Source: Cyanothece sp. UBA12306 (GTDB lineage: Bacteria > Cyanobacteriota > Cyanobacteriia > Cyanobacteriales > Microcystaceae). Taken from it: 13,965 bases of DNA. The notes under the pieces are model-generated. The model saw nothing but the letters and a program-made list of their open reading frames with translations, made no database searches and was not told where the DNA came from. This document shows, piece by piece, positions 1-13,965 of this stretch. Position 1 is the stretch's first letter. Each line of letters opens with the position of its first letter. The position numbers and the translations under genes are program-made. The DNA is taken from assembly GCA_003448685.1 (NCBI GenBank), contig DLXW01000293.1, forward strand, positions 1 through 13,965, given 5' to 3'.

Positions 1-95
1 TATAGCAGTCGAACTAAAGGTTAGGAAGTTTTTCTATTGTCTGTTTCCCTTGAATTAACAATTATGATGTCCTAATCTATGCTTCGACTGCTATA
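1..95. mobile_element. MITE-like element with terminal inverted repeats
   Basis: The first 13 bases (TATAGCAGTCGAA) are the exact reverse complement of positions 83-95, and the similarity continues inward imperfectly to about 26 bp per arm (22 of 26 positions match). The interior has no coding capacity. The terminal TATA and the TA at the junction fit a TA-target insertion, as made by IS630/Tc1-mariner transposases. The sequence right of it (TACTTATT...) is the interior of the interspersed repeat, so the element seems to sit inside that repeat. Its left flank is outside the window. The family assignment is inference. Confidence 0.6.
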
Positions 96-201
96 CTTAT
101 TCTTGATGTATGATTAATCGTTTTAAACGGCGAAACCCAACATCAACCTATTCTTTTATTATTAATGTTATTGTTGGGTTTACTTCTTCAACCCAACCTA
201 C
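94..201 (+). repeat. Interspersed palindromic repeat, copy A (left part missing)
   Basis: This copy shares TTTTAAACGGCGAAACCCAA and the end CAACCCAACCTAC with copies B and D. The left arm GTAGGTTGGGTT is absent because the 95-bp inverted-repeat element abuts at the TA before CTTATT. The internal arms GAAACCCAAC and GTTGGGTTT remain. Positions 202-262, up to the toxin remnant, hold nothing recognisable. Confidence 0.85.
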
Positions 202-262
202 TGTTTTATTGTTTTTATTTTGGAAAAGGGGATGATTTTTTAATACCTAACAAATCTCCGCT

Positions 263-556
263 TTATTTTTCTTCTATAGAGTTGATTTGCTGGGAACCAT
301 GAAGAACAGCTAGAATATCAATTTGCTCGGACTTAATATAATAAATAATACGGTAAGAACCTTCAATGATTTCTCGAATCTGCTTAGTTTCAAATTCTGG
401 AACTATACGACCTGATCAGGGAAAATCAGCAATCTGTTCAGATCGTCTAGTTAATCTTTCAACAATTATTTGGGCATATTGAGGAGAAGTTTGGGAAATA
501 TAGTTGTAGATAGAGGATAAATGATTAATAGCTGTTTCAGTCCAAAAAACTTTCAT
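263..556 (-). pseudogene. ParE/RelE-type toxin broken by an in-frame TGA
   Basis: Read from the ATG at 556, this is a 97-codon frame typical of type II ParE toxins. It begins MKVFWTETAINHLSSIYNYI and ends with the conserved core REIIEGSYRIIYYI followed by VLHGSQQI. Codon 47 (416-418) is TGA, between DFP and SGRIVPE. ParE proteins have a sense codon there (FPxSGR...PE), so one change such as CGA or TGG to TGA explains it. The rest of the frame is uninterrupted and full length, so the lesion looks recent. The ATG overlaps the antitoxin stop as ATGA, the usual coupled antitoxin-toxin order. A truncated 46-residue product lacking the C-terminal core should be inactive. Readthrough or a sequencing error are alternatives. 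Confidence 0.85.
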
Positions 557-741
557 TTTTGCAATCCAAACTTAGCCTTTACCTCTTCAACAGAAACAAC
601 TTTACCTGCTTCACTATCATCTAATCCTGACTCTACCGCTTGTCTGACATAAATTTCATACATCAAATCATCCCAGGTAGAATTTTCTGGCAACTTATCA
701 ATTAAACTTCGTGCTTTTTCCTTAATATTTTTGGTTTCCAT
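553..741 (-). CDS. Type II antitoxin partner of the ParE-type toxin
   Basis: This 62-residue protein starts METKNIKEKARSLIDKLPEN and ends SVEEVKAKFGLQK. It is small, charged and mostly helical, with a C-terminal VEEVKAKFG segment of the kind seen in many short RelB/ParD-like antitoxins that wrap their toxin. I chose the ATG at 741 rather than an in-frame ATG 14 codons upstream, because a strong AAGGAG (749-754) lies 7 bases before it. Its stop overlaps the toxin ATG by four bases. The toxin is broken, so the gene may now act only as an orphan antitoxin or autorepressor. The exact antitoxin family is not certain. Confidence 0.75.
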   Translation of the reverse strand: METKNIKEKARSLIDKLPENSTWDDLMYEIYVRQAVESGLDDSEAGKVVSVEEVKAKFGLQK

Positions 742-748
742 GAACTTT

Positions 749-754
749 CTCCTT
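749..754 (-). promoter_or_regulatory. Ribosome binding site AAGGAG for the antitoxin
   Basis: AAGGAG on the minus strand, 7 bases before the ATG at 741. It fixes that start over the upstream in-frame ATG at 783, which has no such site. Confidence 0.7.
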
Positions 755-786
755 AGTAAGTAAACTAAATCATTATGTATCATTAT

Positions 787-846
787 AGCCTGTAGGGCGA
801 TCGCCTCGCCTTCTTCGGTTGGGTTGGTCTGAACTTATTCTTAAAC
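787..846 (+). repeat. Interspersed repeat, partial copy E (left arm only)
   Basis: The stretch contains HIP1 (797-804), then CGCCTTCTTCGGTTGGGTTG and TCTGAACTTATTC, matching the left halves of copies C and D. The right half, with GAAACCCAAC and AACCCAACCTAC, is missing, so this is a truncated copy in the same orientation. Confidence 0.75.
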
Positions 847-895
847 AGCTTAGGTTAGGTTAAAATAAAAGCATAAATTTCCACCAGAAAAAATA

Positions 896-901
896 GAGGA
901 G
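896..901 (+). promoter_or_regulatory. Ribosome binding site GAGGAG before an ATT codon
   Basis: GAGGAG followed by 8 bases and then ATT CCA ACA TTA, where MPTLEQ would be expected if ATT were ATG. The position marks the ancestral start of the DUF6888-like gene. Confidence 0.65.
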
Positions 902-909
902 AAAAAGCC

Positions 910-1086
910 ATTCCAACATTAGAACAAAAAACTCAATGTTATATTTTAGGCTGTTGGTTTACAAAACTCTACTGGCCAATTAATATTATTCGTCTTGATG
1001 AACGAACTAGCAATATATTTTTCTTGGCAGGAGATAAAAATATTATAGAAATTTACAAAGATGGAAAATGGAGGTATATCCAATGA
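910..1086 (+). CDS. DUF6888-like small protein, apparent ATT start
   Basis: The frame encodes 58 residues: (I/M)PTLEQKTQCYILGCWFTKL, then a YWPINIIRLDERTSN core, a FFLAGD strand and a KDGKWRYIQ end. This matches my recollection of the cyanobacterial DUF6888 family, of unknown function. No in-frame ATG, GTG or TTG exists between the upstream stop (874-876) and the ATT at 910, yet a strong GAGGAG lies at the right distance. Either the gene starts at ATT (rare, but known from infC) or an ATG to ATT change has nearly silenced it. Its TGA overlaps the next ATG as ATGA. It sits among toxin-antitoxin modules and has the same compact pair architecture, so a toxin-antitoxin-like role is possible but unproven. 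Confidence 0.6.
   Translation: MPTLEQKTQCYILGCWFTKLYWPINIIRLDERTSNIFFLAGDKNIIEIYKDGKWRYIQ
1070..1074 (+). promoter_or_regulatory. Ribosome binding site GGAGG for the DUF6887-like gene
   Basis: GGAGG lies inside the 3' end of the preceding gene, 8 bases before the ATG at 1083. It excludes the in-frame ATG at 1068, which this site itself overlaps. Confidence 0.75.
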
Positions 1087-1301
1087 GTAAACCAAATTTT
1101 GCCACAATGACTCAAAAAGAATTACATGATTATTTTCTGACTCATCGAGATGATCAAGAGGCTTTTTATGCTTATGTTGATAAACTACATAGTGAGGGAA
1201 ATTGGGTTGAAATGCCACCTTTAAAATCATTAGATGACTTAAATCAACATCCTGATTTTATGGCACGTTTTCCACAGAATTCTCAAGGTAATGGTGAATA
1301 G
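1083..1301 (+). CDS. DUF6887-like small protein
   Basis: This 72-residue protein (MSKPNFATMTQKELHDYFLT, then HRDDQEAFYAYVDKL, ending in PDFMARF plus a polar tail) resembles the cyanobacterial DUF6887 family, which as I recall is usually encoded directly after DUF6888. The start is the ATG at 1083, which has GGAGG upstream and overlaps the preceding TGA by four bases, so translation is probably coupled. The N-terminal MTxKELxxYxLxHRDDxEAFxAY block is acidic and helical, as in many antitoxins, but I see no clear DNA-binding motif. Function is unknown. If DUF6888 is a toxin this would be its antitoxin, but that is hypothesis. Confidence 0.75.
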   Translation: MSKPNFATMTQKELHDYFLTHRDDQEAFYAYVDKLHSEGNWVEMPPLKSLDDLNQHPDFMARFPQNSQGNGE

Positions 1302-1302
1302 T

Positions 1303-1435
1303 GCGATCTTCTTCGTAGGTTGGGTTGAGCGGTACTTATTTTTAATGTATGACTAATCTTTTTAAACGGCGAAACCCAACACCAACCTATGATTATGAAT
1401 GTTATTGTTGGGTTTCCTTCCTCAACCCAACCTAC
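1303..1435 (+). repeat. Interspersed palindromic repeat, copy B (full length)
   Basis: The outer arms GTAGGTTGGGTTGAG (1315-1329) and its exact complement CTCAACCCAACCTAC (1421-1435) enclose a second inverted pair, GAAACCCAAC (1371-1380) and GTTGGGTTTC (1407-1416). The transcript could fold into a long nested hairpin. It begins directly after the DUF6887-like stop and ends about 40 bases from the end of the RelE gene. Confidence 0.9.
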
Positions 1436-1478
1436 AATTTAATTGATGGGGGAGGGGTTAAAAAGGCTATCGCGGGTA

Positions 1479-1736
1479 TTAATAAATTTCTCGACGATGA
1501 CCAACTCTGATAATGATAATTAATTTATTTTCTCTATCTAACTCATAAATAATTCGATAATCTCCTACTCTTAACTTATAAAACCCTGACCATTTACCTG
1601 TTAGAGAGAGAGGTGTAATTTGCTCAAAATTGATACCTAACCATGAAATCTTATTAAGAATCCGTATTCGCATCACTGGAGCCAAATTATCTAAATCGTT
1701 TACTGCTTCTGGTTCAAAACTAACAGAATAACTCAT
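1479..1736 (-). CDS. RelE/ParE-superfamily toxin, intact
   Basis: The 85 residues are the usual size for RelE-type mRNA interferases. The protein opens MSYSVSFEPEAVNDLDNLAP and carries the core YKLRVGDYRIIYEL (53-66) and the C-terminal RVGHRREIY. Arg61, Arg81 and Tyr85 lie where the catalytic or RNA-contacting Arg and Tyr residues of RelE fall, so ribosome-dependent mRNA cleavage is the expected activity (family inference). The ATG at 1736 directly follows the antitoxin TAA with no gap. It is the only module in this patch whose toxin appears undamaged. Confidence 0.88.
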   Translation of the reverse strand: MSYSVSFEPEAVNDLDNLAPVMRIRILNKISWLGINFEQITPLSLTGKWSGFYKLRVGDYRIIYELDRENKLIIIIRVGHRREIY

Positions 1737-1952
1737 TTAAGGCTCTATTCCATACCTTTTATACACTTCAGATGCTGGAATAGTTGGTCTTCCCTCTATT
1801 CGTTTACGCCGTATTTCCAAGAGACTTTGTTTGAACGATTCTTTCATGTCATTTCCCTCATCAGGATCGCCGAAGTATTCATCAAGGATCTCATCTACGG
1901 TGTTACGGATTAAGTTTTGTAACTGTTCCGTTGTCATCTCTTTTATTTGCAT
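1737..1952 (-). CDS. Antitoxin of the RelE-type toxin
   Basis: This 71-residue acidic protein (MQIKEMTTEQLQNLIRNTVD, ending TIPASEVYKRYGIEP) has the amphipathic helical N-terminus and the C-terminal PASEVYKRYGI segment common in cyanobacterial antitoxins paired with RelE. I kept the ATG at 1952, which has GAGAT 7 bases upstream. The in-frame ATG five codons later has only a purine run pressed against it. Its stop touches the toxin start, so the two genes are co-translated. It should neutralise the toxin and probably repress the shared promoter upstream of 1952. Confidence 0.82.
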   Translation of the reverse strand: MQIKEMTTEQLQNLIRNTVDEILDEYFGDPDEGNDMKESFKQSLLEIRRKRIEGRPTIPASEVYKRYGIEP

Positions 1953-1998
1953 CGTTTATCTCAACCATAAAATATATGACTAATTATATCAATCACGA

Positions 1999-2111
1999 GG
2001 GCGATCGCCTTCTTAGGTTGGGTTGGTCTGAACTTATTCCTAATGTATGATTAATCTTTTGAAAAGGGCGAAACCCAACATAATCAATTTCTATCGCCTT
2101 GCCCACCCTAC
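1999..2111 (+). repeat. Interspersed repeat, degenerate copy C
   Basis: The copy starts with HIP1 (2001-2008), then AGGTTGGGTTGGTCTGAACT, TTAATC and GGGCGAAACCCAACA. The right end is eroded to CGCCTTGCCCACCCTAC instead of TCAACCCAACCTAC, and about 20 bp of the interior are gone. Between this copy and copy D (2112-2175) I see no gene or motif. Confidence 0.8.
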
Positions 2112-2175
2112 AATTAGATAAAATAGGAAGTAAAATCAAACTATCAAACCAAATGACGAAAACATCAGCCTTTCA

Positions 2176-2316
2176 GGACGATCGCCTCGCCTTCGTAGGT
2201 TGGGTTGAGCCGAACTTATTCTGAATGTACGATTAATCTTTTCAAACGGCGAAACCCAACATTAACCTATGATGATTAACGTTATTGTTGGGTTTCCTAT
2301 TGTCAACCCAACCTAC
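2176..2316 (+). repeat. Interspersed palindromic repeat, copy D (full length)
   Basis: GTAGGTTGGGTTGAG (2195-2209) pairs with GTCAACCCAACCTAC (2302-2316), and the inner arms GAAACCCAAC and GTTGGGTTTC are also present. The right end directly abuts the BrnT-like remnant, so the repeat or the rearrangement that brought it removed the toxin 5' part. Confidence 0.9.
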
Positions 2317-2318
2317 TA

Positions 2319-2483
2319 TTTTATCAAGCAGGAAAAATATTTTTTATCGGACACGATGATAAAAATCGTCTTTTATTAGTTTGTTTTACTGAAAGAAATC
2401 GAATAATCCGCATTATCAGCGCACGTTTAACAACCAAAAAAGAACGTCTTGACTATGAAAAATACAGAGAATTCTCAAATTAA
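2319..2483 (+). pseudogene. BrnT-like toxin remnant (C-terminal half)
   Basis: The frame ending at TAA 2481-2483 reads GKIFFIGHDDKNRLLLVCFT, then ERNRIIRIISARLTTKKERLDYE and a short tail. This is the C-terminal half of a BrnT toxin: the (F/I)xIGxxDxxRLLxVxxTER strands and the RIISAR..TxxERxxYE helix. About 45 N-terminal residues are missing. In place of them is repeat copy D, and I could not find the missing part on its other side. There is no plausible start codon. The 3' end still overlaps the antitoxin gene by 29 bases, keeping the native BrnT-BrnA order. Confidence 0.8.
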
Positions 2484-2679
2484 CCAAGATTTAGAACCAG
2501 ATTTGCTTCGTGAATATAACTTTGACTATGGTAAAGCTCGTCCTAATCGTTTTGCTACTGAGGCAAATGAGACAAACATAACTGTTACTTTAGAATCAGA
2601 TGTTGCCCAAGTTTTCAAAACTTCTGAAGAGGTAAATAAGGCACTTCGAGCTATCTTATCTGCTATCCCTAAAAAATAA
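2455..2679 (+). CDS. BrnA-like antitoxin, orphaned
   Basis: The 74 residues start MKNTENSQINQDLEPDLLRE and include YNFDYGKARPNRFA, then a VTLESDVAQVFKTSEEVNKA block typical of BrnA/CopG-like antitoxins, in which a C-terminal ribbon-helix-helix-like segment binds DNA. The ATG at 2455 was preferred over a TTG two codons earlier. The gene begins inside the 3' end of the BrnT remnant, as in intact brnTA operons. With the toxin truncated, it may persist as a stand-alone repressor or simply await decay. How it is transcribed, with the original promoter lost or replaced by the repeat, is unclear. Confidence 0.8.
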   Translation: MKNTENSQINQDLEPDLLREYNFDYGKARPNRFATEANETNITVTLESDVAQVFKTSEEVNKALRAILSAIPKK

Positions 2680-2681
2680 GC

Positions 2682-2725
2682 CTGTAGCCTGTAGGTTGGT
2701 TTGAGTGATACTTATTGTTAATCTA
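2682..2725 (+). repeat. Interspersed repeat, fragment F (left arm only)
   Basis: GTAGGTTGGTTTGAGTGATA followed by CTTATTGTTAATC matches the left part of copies B and D. It lies immediately after the BrnA-like stop and closes the row of repeat-separated modules. Confidence 0.65.
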
Positions 2726-2764
2726 TTTCTTCAACATTGTCACTTCATTTTTGGAAATTTTGAC

Positions 2765-2838: not shown

Positions 2839-4812
2839 TTACTGTAATTTAAACATAATCGCCGTAAACTTAGGAACTGTAATCTCTAGCGCATTATGGA
2901 AGTGTTCCGTATTCCATTGTTTTGTGTGCATAGGTGACGCATTGCCTTTACCACTTCCTCCATACATCTGGGAATCAGTATTGATTAATTCAATGTAAGT
3001 TCCGTGGTCTGGGACTCCTAGCCAATAATTATATTGGTCACAGTCCTTAAAATTACAAACTACCACGATTTTTTCAGGGGAATGTTTATCATGACGGATA
3101 AAAGAAATCATGCCTCGGCCAGCATCATGACAGTCAACCCATTGAAAGCCATTAGGAGTAAAATCATCTGTATAAAGGGCCGGCTGTTGGCGATAAATGG
3201 TATTGAGATCTTGGACTAACTTTTTCAGTTTCCAATGCAGTTCCTGATCGAGTAAGAACCACTCGAGATCAAGTCCATAACGCCATTCATGGGTTTGGCC
3301 AAATTCCATGCCCATAAATAAGGTTTTCTTCCCTGGATGGGTGAACATATAGGCGAATAGCACCCGTAAATTAGCTATTCTGTCCCAATCACTAACACCA
3401 TCTACACCTCCCATTTTCTGGAATAAATGTCCTTTACCATGCACCACTTCGTCATGGGATAGGGCTAACATAAAATTTTCATTGAAGGCATACCAAAGAC
3501 TAAAGGTCAGTTTGCTATGGTAATTGGAGCGATCGTGGGGATTACAATTAAAATATTTGAGGGTATCATTCATCCACCCCATATTCCATTTGAAATTAAA
3601 TCCTAGTCCCCCTCCCTCGATGGGACGGGACACATTTTGCCATTCTGTCGCTTCTTCAGCAATGGAAAGAATTCCTGGATAATAACCAAATAAAGTCTTA
3701 TTCAATTCCCGAAGGAAAGATACTGCTTCCTTATTGGAGTCCCCTCCCTCATCATTAGGAATCCATTGACCTGGTTCTCGTTGATGATTGAGGTAAATCA
3801 TTGAAGATACGGCATCCACCCGAATTCCGTCAATATGATACACCTCAAACCAAAATATGGCGCTGGCCATCAAGAAATTCCGCACCTCATTGCGGCCATA
3901 GTCAAAAACGAGGGTTCCCCATTCCAAGTGTTCTCCTTTACGGGGGTCTTCATATTCATAAAGGGTAGTAAAATCAAACCTGGCCAACCCATGACTATCC
4001 TTGGGGAAATGCCCTGGAACCCAGTCTATCAGCACCCCTATTCCCTGTTGATGGCATTGATCCACAAAATACATAAAATCCTGGGGAGTTCCATAGCGGG
4101 AGGTGACGGCAAAATAACCCACTACTTGATAACCCCAAGACCCATCAAAGGGGTATTCTGTCACCGGAAGCAGTTCAATATGGGTATACCCCATCTCTTT
4201 GACGTAGGGGATTAACTGGTCTGCTAATTCGCGGTAGTTGAGGAAACGGGCATTATCTTTATAGGGAACCCCAATAGGTACGGCATCTTTAGGTGCATTG
4301 TCCCAACTGGTGTGCTTCCATGACCCTAGATGGACTTCATAGACGGAAACAGGCTCATCCTGGGGGTTTTTCTGGGCTCGCTGATTTAACCAGTCTTGAT
4401 CATGCCAAGTGTAGGATAAATCGGTGACAATAGAGGCGGTGGCTGGCCGGACTTCTTGTTGATAACCATAGGGATCAGTTTTTTCCATCACGTCTTTGTG
4501 GTGATTTTTGACGGCAAATTTGTATTTTTCGCCAACTGTGATATTGGGGATGAAGAGTTCCCAAATTCCTGGGTTGTCCATTTCGATGCGTTTCATCAAA
4601 TGGCTATCTCGGTTCCAGTGGTTGAAGTCGCCGATTACAGCTATTTCATGGGCATTAGGGGCCCAAATAGCAAAATAAACCCCGGGTATGGAGTTAAATT
4701 CAACGGGGTGTGCTCCGAGTTTTTCATAGATTCTGTGATGCTTTCCTTCACCAAATAGGTAAAGATCCTCGTCACTAAATAAACTATTGGGATTAGCTAC
4801 AGTGTTTTTCAT
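2839..4812 (-). CDS. glgB: 1,4-alpha-glucan (glycogen) branching enzyme
   Basis: A 657-residue cytoplasmic GH13 enzyme that cuts alpha-1,4 glucan chains and re-attaches them by alpha-1,6 bonds to make branched glycogen. A CBM48-type beta-sandwich (about 28-120, with VYFAIWAPNA and VIGDFNHWN) precedes the catalytic barrel. The four GH13 signatures are visible: DWVPGHF (263-269), GIRVDAVSSM with nucleophile Asp333, SIAEEATEW with acid/base Glu386, and LSHDEVVHG with Asp454. A C-terminal beta domain ends at VPKFTAIMFKLQ. Common cyanobacterial GlgB proteins are about 760-770 residues with an extra N-terminal domain. This one starts about 20 residues before the CBM48 region, so it is the shorter type and may be one of several paralogues. 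It has no strong Shine-Dalgarno. The hairpin at 2765-2797 follows it. Confidence 0.96.
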   Translation of the reverse strand: MKNTVANPNSLFSDEDLYLFGEGKHHRIYEKLGAHPVEFNSIPGVYFAIWAPNAHEIAVIGDFNHWNRDSHLMKRIEMDNPGIWELFIPNITVGEKYKFAVKNHHKDVMEKTDPYGYQQEVRPATASIVTDLSYTWHDQDWLNQRAQKNPQDEPVSVYEVHLGSWKHTSWDNAPKDAVPIGVPYKDNARFLNYRELADQLIPYVKEMGYTHIELLPVTEYPFDGSWGYQVVGYFAVTSRYGTPQDFMYFVDQCHQQGIGVLIDWVPGHFPKDSHGLARFDFTTLYEYEDPRKGEHLEWGTLVFDYGRNEVRNFLMASAIFWFEVYHIDGIRVDAVSSMIYLNHQREPGQWIPNDEGGDSNKEAVSFLRELNKTLFGYYPGILSIAEEATEWQNVSRPIEGGGLGFNFKWNMGWMNDTLKYFNCNPHDRSNYHSKLTFSLWYAFNENFMLALSHDEVVHGKGHLFQKMGGVDGVSDWDRIANLRVLFAYMFTHPGKKTLFMGMEFGQTHEWRYGLDLEWFLLDQELHWKLKKLVQDLNTIYRQQPALYTDDFTPNGFQWVDCHDAGRGMISFIRHDKHSPEKIVVVCNFKDCDQYNYWLGVPDHGTYIELINTDSQMYGGSGKGNASPMHTKQWNTEHFHNALEITVPKFTAIMFKLQ

Positions 4813-12402: not shown

Positions 12403-12999
12403 TTAATTTAAAGCTCTTCCATCTGTTCCTTTAAAAATACGAGGAACCTTTTCTGAAGTCCCGTCATGTTCAATCTCAATGATAGCTAAAACTCCTTGAT
12501 CAGTAGCAACATTGCGCCAGAGAGTAAAATAAGGTTCAAGTTCTCGAAAGTTACCGATACGATCAGTTAACCAGTTATACATTTTCCTTGATGGAACTAT
12601 TAGTATTCCCCCAACAATTACTTTTTCAAGTAACCCAATTGCAATTTTATTCAATGCTCTATGACTTGAAGAAATGTTACCGGTTTCCCATTCAACAACA
12701 AACAGTTTTTGAGCAGAAATAATTTTGACTGCGTCCACGGGGCCAGGTTTCGCATTAGCTACAATACTCATTCGTTTTTCTCGTACCCAACCATAATTGT
12801 ATAAGGCCGTCATAAAACCTTCTTTAATGGGTTTAACTCCATTGCCTTTTTTTTCAGGATAAAGAATAAATTGATCACTCCCTGGCGGCCAACGAACTGC
12901 ATCAATCGCATTATAAACCTCTTTAAGGATTTGGTTAAATTCCTCTGACTGTGCAAACTGTCCCTTTCTAATCAAAAATTCAGTTTTGTTGATCTTCAT
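12403..12999 (-). CDS. Type II restriction endonuclease, BglII/BamHI-like
   Basis: From the ATG at 12999 this is 198 residues. The centre carries a PD-(D/E)xK variant: Asp89 in PGPVDAV, then Glu103-Trp-Glu105 in FVVEWETGNISSSHRALNKI (100-119), the acidic D...ExE arrangement used by BamHI (ExE) and, as ExQ, by BglII/BstYI. The length is close to these enzymes (about 200-223). It is expected to cut unmodified DNA, possibly at a GATC-centred site, but the site cannot be read from sequence. A longer frame opens at 13044. I chose 12999 because GGAAG lies 9 bases upstream and the start nests within the end of the controller gene (20-base overlap), giving coupled C-then-R expression. Context (controller plus divergent methyltransferase) strongly supports the call. 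Confidence 0.83.
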   Translation of the reverse strand: MKINKTEFLIRKGQFAQSEEFNQILKEVYNAIDAVRWPPGSDQFILYPEKKGNGVKPIKEGFMTALYNYGWVREKRMSIVANAKPGPVDAVKIISAQKLFVVEWETGNISSSHRALNKIAIGLLEKVIVGGILIVPSRKMYNWLTDRIGNFRELEPYFTLWRNVATDQGVLAIIEIEHDGTSEKVPRIFKGTDGRALN

Positions 13000-13216
13000 G
13001 GAGTATGTCTTCCACTTCCGCAACAATAGATGCAGCAGAGACATTAAGAGCTTCTGCTAATTTGATAATGGTTGATATAGTTGGTTGTCTAAGTCCACTT
13101 TCAAGACGAGAAATAAATGTTCTATCAAGTCCACTACTAGAGGAAAGTTCTTCTTGTGAAAGTCCTTTGGACTTCCTGAGACGCTGAACAACTTTACCGA
13201 ATGCTTTTTCAGGCAT
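12980..13216 (-). CDS. XRE-family controller (C) protein of the restriction-modification system
   Basis: The 78 residues are the normal size for C proteins. The helix-turn-helix core spans about 8-60: VVQRLRKSKGLSQEELSSSS, then GLDRTFISRLESGLRQPTIS and KLAEALNVS. The LDRTFISRLESGxRxP pattern is typical of controllers that dimerise on C-box operators and activate their own and the endonuclease gene while limiting the methyltransferase. GGAGG lies 11 bases before the ATG. It overlaps the endonuclease start by 20 bases. The 18-bp palindrome at 13266-13283 is its likely operator. A generic XRE repressor is the alternative, but the context favours a C protein. Confidence 0.88.
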   Translation of the reverse strand: MPEKAFGKVVQRLRKSKGLSQEELSSSSGLDRTFISRLESGLRQPTISTIIKLAEALNVSAASIVAEVEDILHEDQQN

Positions 13217-13238
13217 TACTATAATATCCTCCAGCTAG

Positions 13239-13283
13239 AGCCTATCTTACTTGACAAAATAGTGCTGTAGCCTATAGGCTACA
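13239..13283. promoter_or_regulatory. Putative C-protein operator region with 18-bp palindrome
   Basis: TGTAGCCTATAGGCTACA (13266-13283) is a perfect 18-bp palindrome. The same AGCCTAT half-site recurs at 13239-13245, exactly 30 bp from the copy at 13269-13275, about three helical turns. The palindrome covers the methyltransferase -10 and lies where the -35 of a leftward controller promoter would be (TAAGAT as -10, minus strand 13244-13249, with a poor GGCTAC -35). This is the layout expected for a controller that represses the methyltransferase and activates itself. Binding is inference. Confidence 0.65.
13251..13278 (+). promoter_or_regulatory. Promoter of the methyltransferase gene
   Basis: A perfect TTGACA (13251-13256), a 16-base spacer and TATAGG (13273-13278). 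The -10 is embedded in the palindrome, so a bound dimer would block polymerase. The leader would be about 45 bases. Confidence 0.6.
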
Positions 13284-13314
13284 AAAAGAAACTGAGTTTT
13301 TATTAGTACAGTAG

Positions 13315-13319
13315 AGGAG
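13315..13319 (+). promoter_or_regulatory. Ribosome binding site AGGAG of the methyltransferase
   Basis: AGGAG 8 bases before the ATG at 13328. It supports that start, and so includes the HTH-like N-terminal extension in the protein. Confidence 0.7.
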
Positions 13320-13327
13320 AATTTATT

Positions 13328-13965
13328 ATGGTTTTATCACATCAATTTTTTAAAGCTTTGGATATTGAACCTAAGGACTCAATAGCTATTAAACGATTAG
13401 CTGATAAAACTGGAATTTCCGTCAAAAAACTGAAAGATTATGATAAAAATAATATTCTTCCTTTAGGAGAAGATTTAGAAAAAATTTGTACAGTGAAAAA
13501 TATTTCTTTATTAAAACTTAAATTGTTTATGGGAATTATTGATCAAGAGATTATTTCATCTATTCAGCAAAAAGCCCCAGAAATTTATGAAATGATCAAA
13601 GATAAACAAAAATCAAATACTCTTATCCCAGAAAAAAAATCTTTAAAATTAAAAACTAAATTTGGACAGCTTTATCAAGGCGATTGCTTAAATTTAATGA
13701 AAGAAATAAAATCAGGAACAATTGATTTAGTTTTTGCCGATCCACCTTTTAACCTAAATAAAAATTATCCTTCTCAAATCAATGATAGTTTGAGCAATAC
13801 TGATTATTTATTTTGGTGCGAAACGTGGTTATTAGAATGTATTCGTCTTCTGAAACCAGGGGGAAGTTTATTTCTTTGGAATTTACCGAAATGGAATACT
13901 TACTTATCTAGTTTTCTCAATCAATATCTAACTTTTCGACATTGGATAACCGTTGATATTAAATA
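13328..13965 (+). CDS. Type II DNA methyltransferase with HTH-like N-terminus (partial)
   Basis: The first 212 residues are present and the gene runs off the right edge. Residues about 108-183 start the catalytic domain: LYQGDCLNLMKEI (115-127), motif IV ADPPFNL (137-143) and RLLKPGGSLFLWN (173-185). A DPP(Y/F) motif preceding any FxGxG motif fits the beta class, and DPPF favours N6-adenine modification, to protect the sites cut by the neighbouring endonuclease. Residues about 18-62 (IAIKRLADKTGISVKKLKDY, then LPLGEDLEKIC) look like an XRE/HTH-type fold, so the enzyme may also bind its own promoter. The motif I region and most of the target-recognition part are beyond the window. It is divergent from the controller-endonuclease pair. 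Confidence 0.87.
   Translation, partial: MVLSHQFFKALDIEPKDSIAIKRLADKTGISVKKLKDYDKNNILPLGEDLEKICTVKNISLLKLKLFMGIIDQEIISSIQQKAPEIYEMIKDKQKSNTLIPEKKSLKLKTKFGQLYQGDCLNLMKEIKSGTIDLVFADPPFNLNKNYPSQINDSLSNTDYLFWCETWLLECIRLLKPGGSLFLWNLPKWNTYLSSFLNQYLTFRHWITVDIK

Follow-up and report, generated by a model that had tools for sequence, protein, structure and literature searches.

The first 13,965 bases of the 15,406-base contig C267 of Cyanothece sp. UBA12306 (genome G000, the own genome in what follows; 4.65 Mb in 370 contigs, 88% complete) were analysed, and this whole stretch is referred to as the window. Positions 1-2725 of the window hold six copies or fragments of one repeat, all in the same orientation, between four small two-gene modules (M1 to M4) on alternating strands (Table 1). 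The repeat is a GTAG-type REP (repetitive extragenic palindrome) dimer, made of two inverted REPs, and is of the kind linked to REP-associated tyrosine transposases (RAYTs). REPs of this family that carry a prefix resembling HIP1 (highly iterated palindrome 1) are often found at the junctions of small modules in several related cyanobacteria, these modules being toxin-antitoxin pairs, DUF6888/6887 pairs and, in one genome, a RAYT gene.

The row of modules and repeats

A preliminary description of this DNA had reported four toxin-antitoxin-like modules and, separating them, six copies or fragments of a single repeat that all point the same way. Repeat alignment and arm counts confirmed the layout, since the arms GTAGGTTGGGTT (one mismatch or fewer) occur seven times in 1-2838, against a mean of 0.01 and a maximum of 1 in 200 dinucleotide shuffles, and 0 times in the other 11.1 kb of the window. 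A scan of the window with Rfam gave no match. The label toxin-antitoxin-like holds loosely for the four modules, while the toxin genes of M1 and M4 look broken in the assembly and M2 is a pair of DUF genes.

A known toxin family together with a small partner was found in M1, M3 and M4 (PF05016 twice and PF04365 once; the partners are weakly matched or unmatched). In M4, only the second part of the BrnT profile is matched, as the end of repeat D is where the frame starts. M1 and M4 are probably not working addiction modules now, because of the in-frame TGA in M1 and the missing first half of BrnT, unless the stop codon of M1 is an assembly error. The genes of M2 match no known toxin or antitoxin family, only DUF6888 and DUF6887, which are encoded in overlapping frames, and a PDB sequence search with DUF6887 returned three weak matches (best E 0.027). 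DUF6888/DUF6887 genes were seen beside REPs in five genomes (G000, G002, G008, G014 and G033; loci L156, L175, L189, L271, L276 and L278), and in some of these also beside toxin-antitoxin pairs.

Table 1. Positions of the repeats, the module genes and the adjoining features in the window
Feature	Position	Strand	Basis or remark
95-bp inverted-repeat element, arms 1-26 and 70-95, 85% complementary	1-95	n/a	contig start
REP dimer copy A, without 5' arm	94-211	+	repeat alignment
M1 toxin, ParE_toxin (PF05016), in two pieces around in-frame TGA 416-418	263-556	-	profile match
M1 partner, 62 aa, weakly RelB/ParD-like (matches below cut-off)	553-741	-	profile scan
REP fragment copy E, 5' third only, GCGATCGC prefix	794-844	+	repeat alignment
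M2 gene 1, DUF6888 (PF21828), no ATG/GTG/TTG start in the frame read	910-1083	+	profile match
M2 gene 2, DUF6887 (PF21826)	1083-1301	+	profile match
Full REP dimer copy B, GCGATC prefix, 46-nt head loop	1307-1445	+	repeat alignment
M3 toxin, ParE_toxin / RelE_StbE, open frame	1479-1736	-	profile match
M3 partner, presumed antitoxin, no family match, open frame	1737-1952	-	open reading frame/profile scan
REP half copy C, 5' half, GGGCGATCGCCTTC prefix	2009-2080	+	repeat alignment
Full REP dimer copy D, CGATCGCC prefix; end coincides with 5' truncation of brnT	2191-2325	+	
M4 brnT remnant, BrnT_toxin profile positions 42-77 of 77	2319-2480	+	profile match
M4 brnA-like antitoxin gene, weak BrnA match (E 0.076)	2449-2679	+	profile match
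REP fragment copy F, 5' third only, without GCGATC prefix	2691-2726	+	repeat alignment
glgB	2839-4812	-	adjoins the module/repeat row 1-2725

The full copies B and D are 87-89% identical and consist of inverted REP pairs with outer arms GTAGGTTGGGTTGA/TCAACCCAACCTAC and inner arms AAACCCAACA/TGTTGGGTTT. The tail REP of copy B has a 9-nt loop, with the GTAG tail and the inverted arms present, and the loop of the head REP is 46-47 nt long in copies B, C and D. Among 22 other loci scanned, a head loop of that length was found at C309 only (47 nt, diverged; 77% match to copy B over 73 bp), and its confinement to the row and C309 suggests that one variant spread locally within the row. A GTAG tail followed by an inverted-repeat hairpin is thus present, and the repeat is dispersed, multi-copy and mostly intergenic, occurring both as monomers and as inverted dimers. 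Exact short-loop REP matches number 12 in the own genome and are present in 34 of the 59 genomes searched (the own genome included), with 0 for a reversed-pattern control. REPs were also found between ordinary genes, including as lone monomers; several copies stand 6-50 bp behind a stop codon, and others lie on the promoter side (E, C, the left copy at C204 and the right copy at C336). At an orthologous locus without toxin genes, the own genome (C169) and G006 each carry a REP in a gap that is empty in the other, a difference that fits insertion or loss alike. As inverted REP pairs forming miniature mobile DNA, the dimers resemble the REPINs that Bertels and Rainey are said to have reported in 2011.

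GTAG-tagged REP families and REPtrons (a RAYT gene plus REPs) form an established class (Di Nocera et al. 2013, PMC3733652), and according to the passages of that paper which bear on the present repeat, families GTAG-15/16 are present in Cyanothece strains, and GTAG-15 features large loops of 9-15 nt. The GTAG tail, the inverted dimers, the intergenic position and the flanking of RAYT genes are alike in both, while the GCGATCGC prefix, the 46-47-nt head loop of copies B, C and D and the clustering at toxin-antitoxin modules set our repeats apart from those in the same passages. The word 'toxin' is absent from the main text of PMC3733652.

Prefixed repeats beside toxin-antitoxin genes

Outside the window, 7 of the 13 REP loci of the own genome lie within 150 bp of a toxin-antitoxin gene recognised by Pfam or of its operon partner, so that the enrichment of the repeat next to such genes, which the preliminary description had named as a check, was found in this genome. 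The control was a systematic sample of 20 contigs, picked at a constant interval and totalling 186.5 kb, in which 104 gaps measure 60 bases or more. These contigs hold two toxin-antitoxin modules and thus at most 4 of the 104 gaps lie near such genes (Fisher p = 9e-6), the list of control Pfam matches covering 25 of the 42 families for the batch and the rest being checked by eye. The seven loci are C309 (ParE/RelB-like and HTH/Gp49), C336 and C204 (BrnT), C274 (YoeB), C344 (PemK) and two borderline cases, namely C196, where the open reading frame close to the REP matches no family and the YafQ partner of that frame begins some 350 bp off, and C203, which lies 149 bp from a BLAST match to Phd/YefM. 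An eighth locus, C190, has a DUF6887 neighbour, and C207, located through a toxin search, was left out of the count of 13. A second control, read by eye in 300 kb of G002 and G006, put toxin-antitoxin-like genes beside at most about 14 of 161 gaps, a figure that counts DUF6887 and single HicB-like genes as such. The own genome has 10 ParE matches, 2 of them in the window; of the 8 elsewhere, those at C309 and C207 are accompanied by an arm no more than about 300 bp off. C336 (L155) is a short contig with 42% GC, an RHS-like-looking frame (by eye) and three REPs, and it may be of foreign origin; when it is excluded, 6 of the remaining 12 REP loci are adjacent to toxin-antitoxin genes. A tRNA-Phe gene (L154 6963-7035) stands just before the row of REPs and toxin-antitoxin genes of C309.

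Most of the REPs linked to toxin-antitoxin genes carry the HIP1-like GCGATCGC prefix, with GGGCGATCGCCTTC, (A)GTGCGATCGC(C/T)GATCTT or a close variant standing directly before GTAG in most such copies. A REP cluster was scored as prefixed when GCGATC, CGATCG or GATCGC lay no more than 30 nt outside either of its edges, and as adjacent when a toxin-antitoxin or DUF6887/8 gene lay within 150 bp. One gene of each toxin-antitoxin pair was assigned by Pfam and the other by adjacency; for HicAB in L271 the assignment was by eye, and it decides no cluster. In tier A, which comprised 39 clusters at 29 loci of G000, G002 and G006 (genus g1), 13 of 22 prefixed clusters were adjacent against 4 of 17 unprefixed ones (p 0.028), the prefix having first been noticed on data from this genus. 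C207 was left out of this tier, as were C319, both C203 loci and C257, whose arms have two mismatches or are absent. Tier B took a single locus, chosen automatically, in each of 27 additional genomes and gave 3 of 5 against 1 of 22 (corrected p 0.013); ten of the neighbours were profile-scanned, and one of these, at L177, with an Xre/MbcA/ParS antitoxin domain, led to that locus being counted as adjacent. For tier C, drawn from stretches of G008, G012 and G031, the fractions were 3/7 and 4/37 (p 0.07), and when the G031 contigs C9 and C64, already seen to hold repeats before sampling, were removed they became 3/5 and 3/32 (p 0.022). Pooled over the tiers, 19 of 34 prefixed clusters and 9 of 76 unprefixed ones were adjacent (p 3e-6), or 13 of 34 and 9 of 76 with DUF6887/8 excluded (p 0.002), all these p values being optimistic because neighbouring clusters are not independent. 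REPs without the prefix sit near the control level of toxin-antitoxin adjacency, and the association follows the prefixed REPs. We had not expected this specificity, a link to toxin-antitoxin genes that is stronger for prefixed REPs than for REPs in general.

HIP1 itself is common (0.37-0.55 per kb). The longer string GCGATCGC(C/T)GATC has just six occurrences in the systematically sampled stretches of six genomes, and four of these sites lie in one G008 array, where they run into GATCTTGT and REP-like sequence; the other two do not. At L127 of G011, GCGATCGCCGATCTT forms the left arm of an apparent terminator hairpin behind DUF6887, with no REP. It is possible that this hairpin is the origin or the target of the prefix. 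It is also possible that REPs insert at pre-existing HIP1 sites, the L127 hairpin perhaps being such a site without a REP.

Bracketing of modules by REPs on both sides recurs in the own genome (the window, C309 and C204), in G002 (L186, L276 and L290), in G033 (L175) and in G008 (L271). In G008, which belongs to another genus, positions 8453-11368 of L271 hold four modules in a row on one strand, with the composite of prefix and REP-like sequence between them, in the order ParE-like pair, HicAB-like pair, YefM/RelE-like pair and DUF6888/6887; the DNA of the YefM/RelE-like pair is 83% identical to that of a G002 pair that matches RelE. The sequence after the prefix varies among these copies (GTCGGTTGGG, GTAGGGTGTG, GTAGGGTGCG and GTATGTTGGG), and thus the prefix is the constant part. 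A row in G002 reads REP, DUF6887/6888, REP, YafQ-like pair (weak match), REP-like remnant, and the HicAB genes (L290) and a ParE pair (L186) of this genome are bracketed by REPs as well, while in G033 a DUF6888/6887 pair lies between REP copies. Related modules therefore stand between such repeats in differing order and place across species. RHS-like-looking frames were seen beside prefixed REPs in G012 and G002 (L339, L274 and L278; 66-71% DNA identity).

RAYT genes were sampled in 20 regions around long PF01797 genes of relatives, 9 of which hold RAYT-type proteins (type judged by eye). Arms of this REP family lie within 250 bp of 4 of the 9 RAYT-type genes (L339, L340, L347 and L357), in two cases on both sides, compared with 2 of 30 other PF01797 loci (L324 and L329, measured from the match edges; 6 of 30 within 1.5 kb). 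The RAYTs at these four loci, the ones that were scanned, score far above the cut-off of NCBIfam NF047646 (REP_Tyr_transpos). The repeat thus flanks RAYT genes, in relatives only. In G012 composites stand on both sides of a RAYT gene, about 180 bp from it on one side and about 480 bp on the other; their REPs are of two kinds, and a HicAB pair lies behind one of the composites. The two exact composites had 0 matches in phage contigs, which at the level of exact matching gives no hint of a viral carrier. The REP core is present in 33 plasmid records, of which 25 are from Moraxella and the others from Desulforapulum, Saccharobesus and cyanobacteria; among five cyanobacterial plasmid regions, two have ordinary genes or CRISPR genes annotated beside the match, one has only hypothetical proteins, more than 350 bp from it, and the remaining two (L379 and L383), which carry no annotation, were read by eye.

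Shared blocks and their ends

Blocks shared between genomes were set against the DNA identity of one core gene, a conserved copy of glgB, in the same genome pair, which is a thin yardstick, and all breakpoint comparisons are cross-species. M2 has 87% identity to its G002 counterpart over 475 bp (glgB 81.5%), with REPs bounding the block on both sides and the other neighbours differing. The HicAB genes of G002 have 85% identity to those of G012 over 485 bp and 89% to those of G031 over 424 bp (glgB 78% in both pairs), and the G002/G012 block extends from the end of hicA across the REP, with its limit at the GTAG tail. For DUF6888/6887, G014 and G008 share 97% over 427 bp (glgB 84%), the similarity in G014 starting next to a REP. 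YoeB/YefM of C274 has 83% identity to its G031 counterpart (glgB 75%), the block ending at the prefix in the own genome, and C190 has 81% identity to G033 (glgB 77%). The M2, HicAB, G014/G008 DUF6888/6887 and YoeB/YefM blocks are signs of single-module transfer, and in two of these four cases a REP moved with the module, wholly or in part.

Exchange at the repeats and other explanations

We think it on balance probable, if only just, that module exchange has used the repeats as its junctions, with cassette-like exchange as the evolutionary history of the row. Modules would have been gained, lost and cut back through events ending in the repeats, either by homologous recombination between directly repeated composites or by the action of a RAYT at the GTAG tail, and in the window these events would have left four modules in a row, of which two have broken toxins. 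Exchange at the repeats had been suggested in the preliminary description, and it is partly borne out in so far as cross-species breakpoints fall at repeats (M2 with G002, HicAB between G002 and G012, and YoeB/YefM with G031). However, 25 of 26 module-homologue loci in relatives (the best match per genome only) have no arm with one mismatch or fewer in flanks of up to 1.5 kb, and modules thus also move or persist without the repeat; this count is softened by the 6 of 26 genomes that hold no exact REP match at all.

Several further points weigh against exchange at the repeats. The similarity of homologue loci to the window ends near the gene ends, so that breakpoints at nearby repeats partly coincide by chance, and since module homology generally stops at module ends, a breakpoint that falls at a repeat next to the module carries little weight. 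Exactly one shared block ends right at the GTAG tail. Little or no excess over glgB was found for YefM/RelE between G002 and G008 (83% against 82.7%), for M3 in G012 (76% against 74.4%) and for M4 in G006 (84% over 2341-2682, against 81.4%), the M4 homologue lying there within a 13-kb stretch without any such arm. No empty site was found for the window modules, the glgB neighbourhood not being conserved in G006 or G002, nor were orthologous empty sites found for C344 and C309, whose flanks are rearranged. In the own genome, at 88% completeness, there is no RAYT among the five PF01797 matches (four of IS200 size and one fragment), and their flanks hold no arm at one mismatch or fewer. In the plasmid copies L379 and L383, GCGATCGC precedes the arm, and by eye no toxin-antitoxin gene was recognised within 150 bp. 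Tier A, as the prefix was first noticed in that genus, is no independent test.

The repeats may instead move nothing, with REPs inserting wherever they are tolerated and toxin-antitoxin genes gathering in the same variable intergenic regions. This passive co-residence would account for the REPs between ordinary genes, for the lack of a REP at most module homologues examined and for module homology that stops near the gene ends, REP or not. We nevertheless consider it rather unlikely, given that unprefixed REPs, many of them in the same genomes, are adjacent to toxin-antitoxin genes at only 9 of 76 clusters, about the control level, and that bracketing on both sides recurs in G000, G002, G033 and G008.

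It is improbable, in our judgement, that prefixed GTAG REPs (GCGATCGC) are the ends of a RAYT-driven cassette system, in which a trans-acting RAYT would excise any small module lying between two such REPs and insert it as single-stranded DNA. Were it so, such a system would yield toxin-antitoxin arrays analogous to integron arrays, by way of a Y1 HUH transposase exploited by toxin-antitoxin pairs.

Direct REPs might also be expected to delete the interval between them, so that only intervals with a toxin-antitoxin pair persist, their loss being punished. As set out in the pertinent passages of Bardaji et al. (2019, PMC6354349), toxin-antitoxin systems suppress deletion mediated by miniature inverted-repeat transposable elements (MITEs) on a Pseudomonas plasmid, where MITE-mediated deletion rose about 50-fold on neutralisation of the toxins. 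Common ground lies in short direct repeats accompanied by toxin-antitoxin genes and in deletions between the repeats, while the MITE case in those passages is plasmid-borne and concerns another repeat family and an 8.3-kb interval, with no row of modules. Such an addiction guard is very doubtful for the window, as two of its four toxin genes look broken, DUF6888/6887 is no known addiction module and the prefix is left unexplained.

Retention of the hairpins as terminators or mRNA-stabilising insulators beside small operons would agree with REPs elsewhere, which in the passages of PMC3733652 concerned lie mostly just downstream of genes, and with the copies found here 6-50 bp behind a stop codon. 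We regard it as highly unlikely, since promoter-side copies are present too (E, C, C204 left and C336 right) and such a role would not be special to toxin-antitoxin genes. Chromosomal integron arrays hold small modules between same-orientation hairpin sites, as does the row, and the repeat arms happen to fit what we take to be the attC consensus (RYYYAAC/GTTRRRY), but that the repeats are attC sites and the modules gene cassettes has next to no likelihood, as the same hairpins occur as lone monomers between ordinary genes and flank RAYT genes, and their loops, on inspection only, vary among copies, unlike conserved L boxes. It was dropped on that inspection, the repeat being a REP whose cargo-free monomers, carrying no cassette, abound. 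The preliminary description had called the array one without an integrase, which is in keeping with a repeat that is of the RAYT/REP kind and, by inspection, not attC, no search having been aimed at integrases.

Chromosomal toxin-antitoxin pairs move often. With a repeat marking module ends in several genera, the pickup of single pairs of about 500 bp without an evident vector would become directly testable, and such a repeat would give the widespread REP/RAYT elements a role as cargo carriers or landing sites. It also points to DUF6888/DUF6887 as a candidate for a new addiction-like pair. In some E. coli strains a toxin-antitoxin operon replaces a REPtron locus and so stands where other strains have REP/RAYT (PMC6006769); this is a single locus, and the passage in question has no bracketing array. 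REP sequences are also tied to the instability of an E. coli toxin-antitoxin locus in a passage of PMC4666352. Among open-licence papers, no description of the toxin-antitoxin/REP association was found in titles or the starts of abstracts.

The 95-bp element at the contig start differs from the REP and abuts repeat A at the point where the 5' arm of A is missing. Copies with 100% identity stand at the starts of contigs C367 and C211, weaker matches were found in G033, G058 and G023, and the element may be the cause of the assembly break. Towards the other end of the window, 12403-13963 hold an HTH regulator (profile match), a 213-aa protein and the start of a gene, which we take to resemble a restriction-modification unit.

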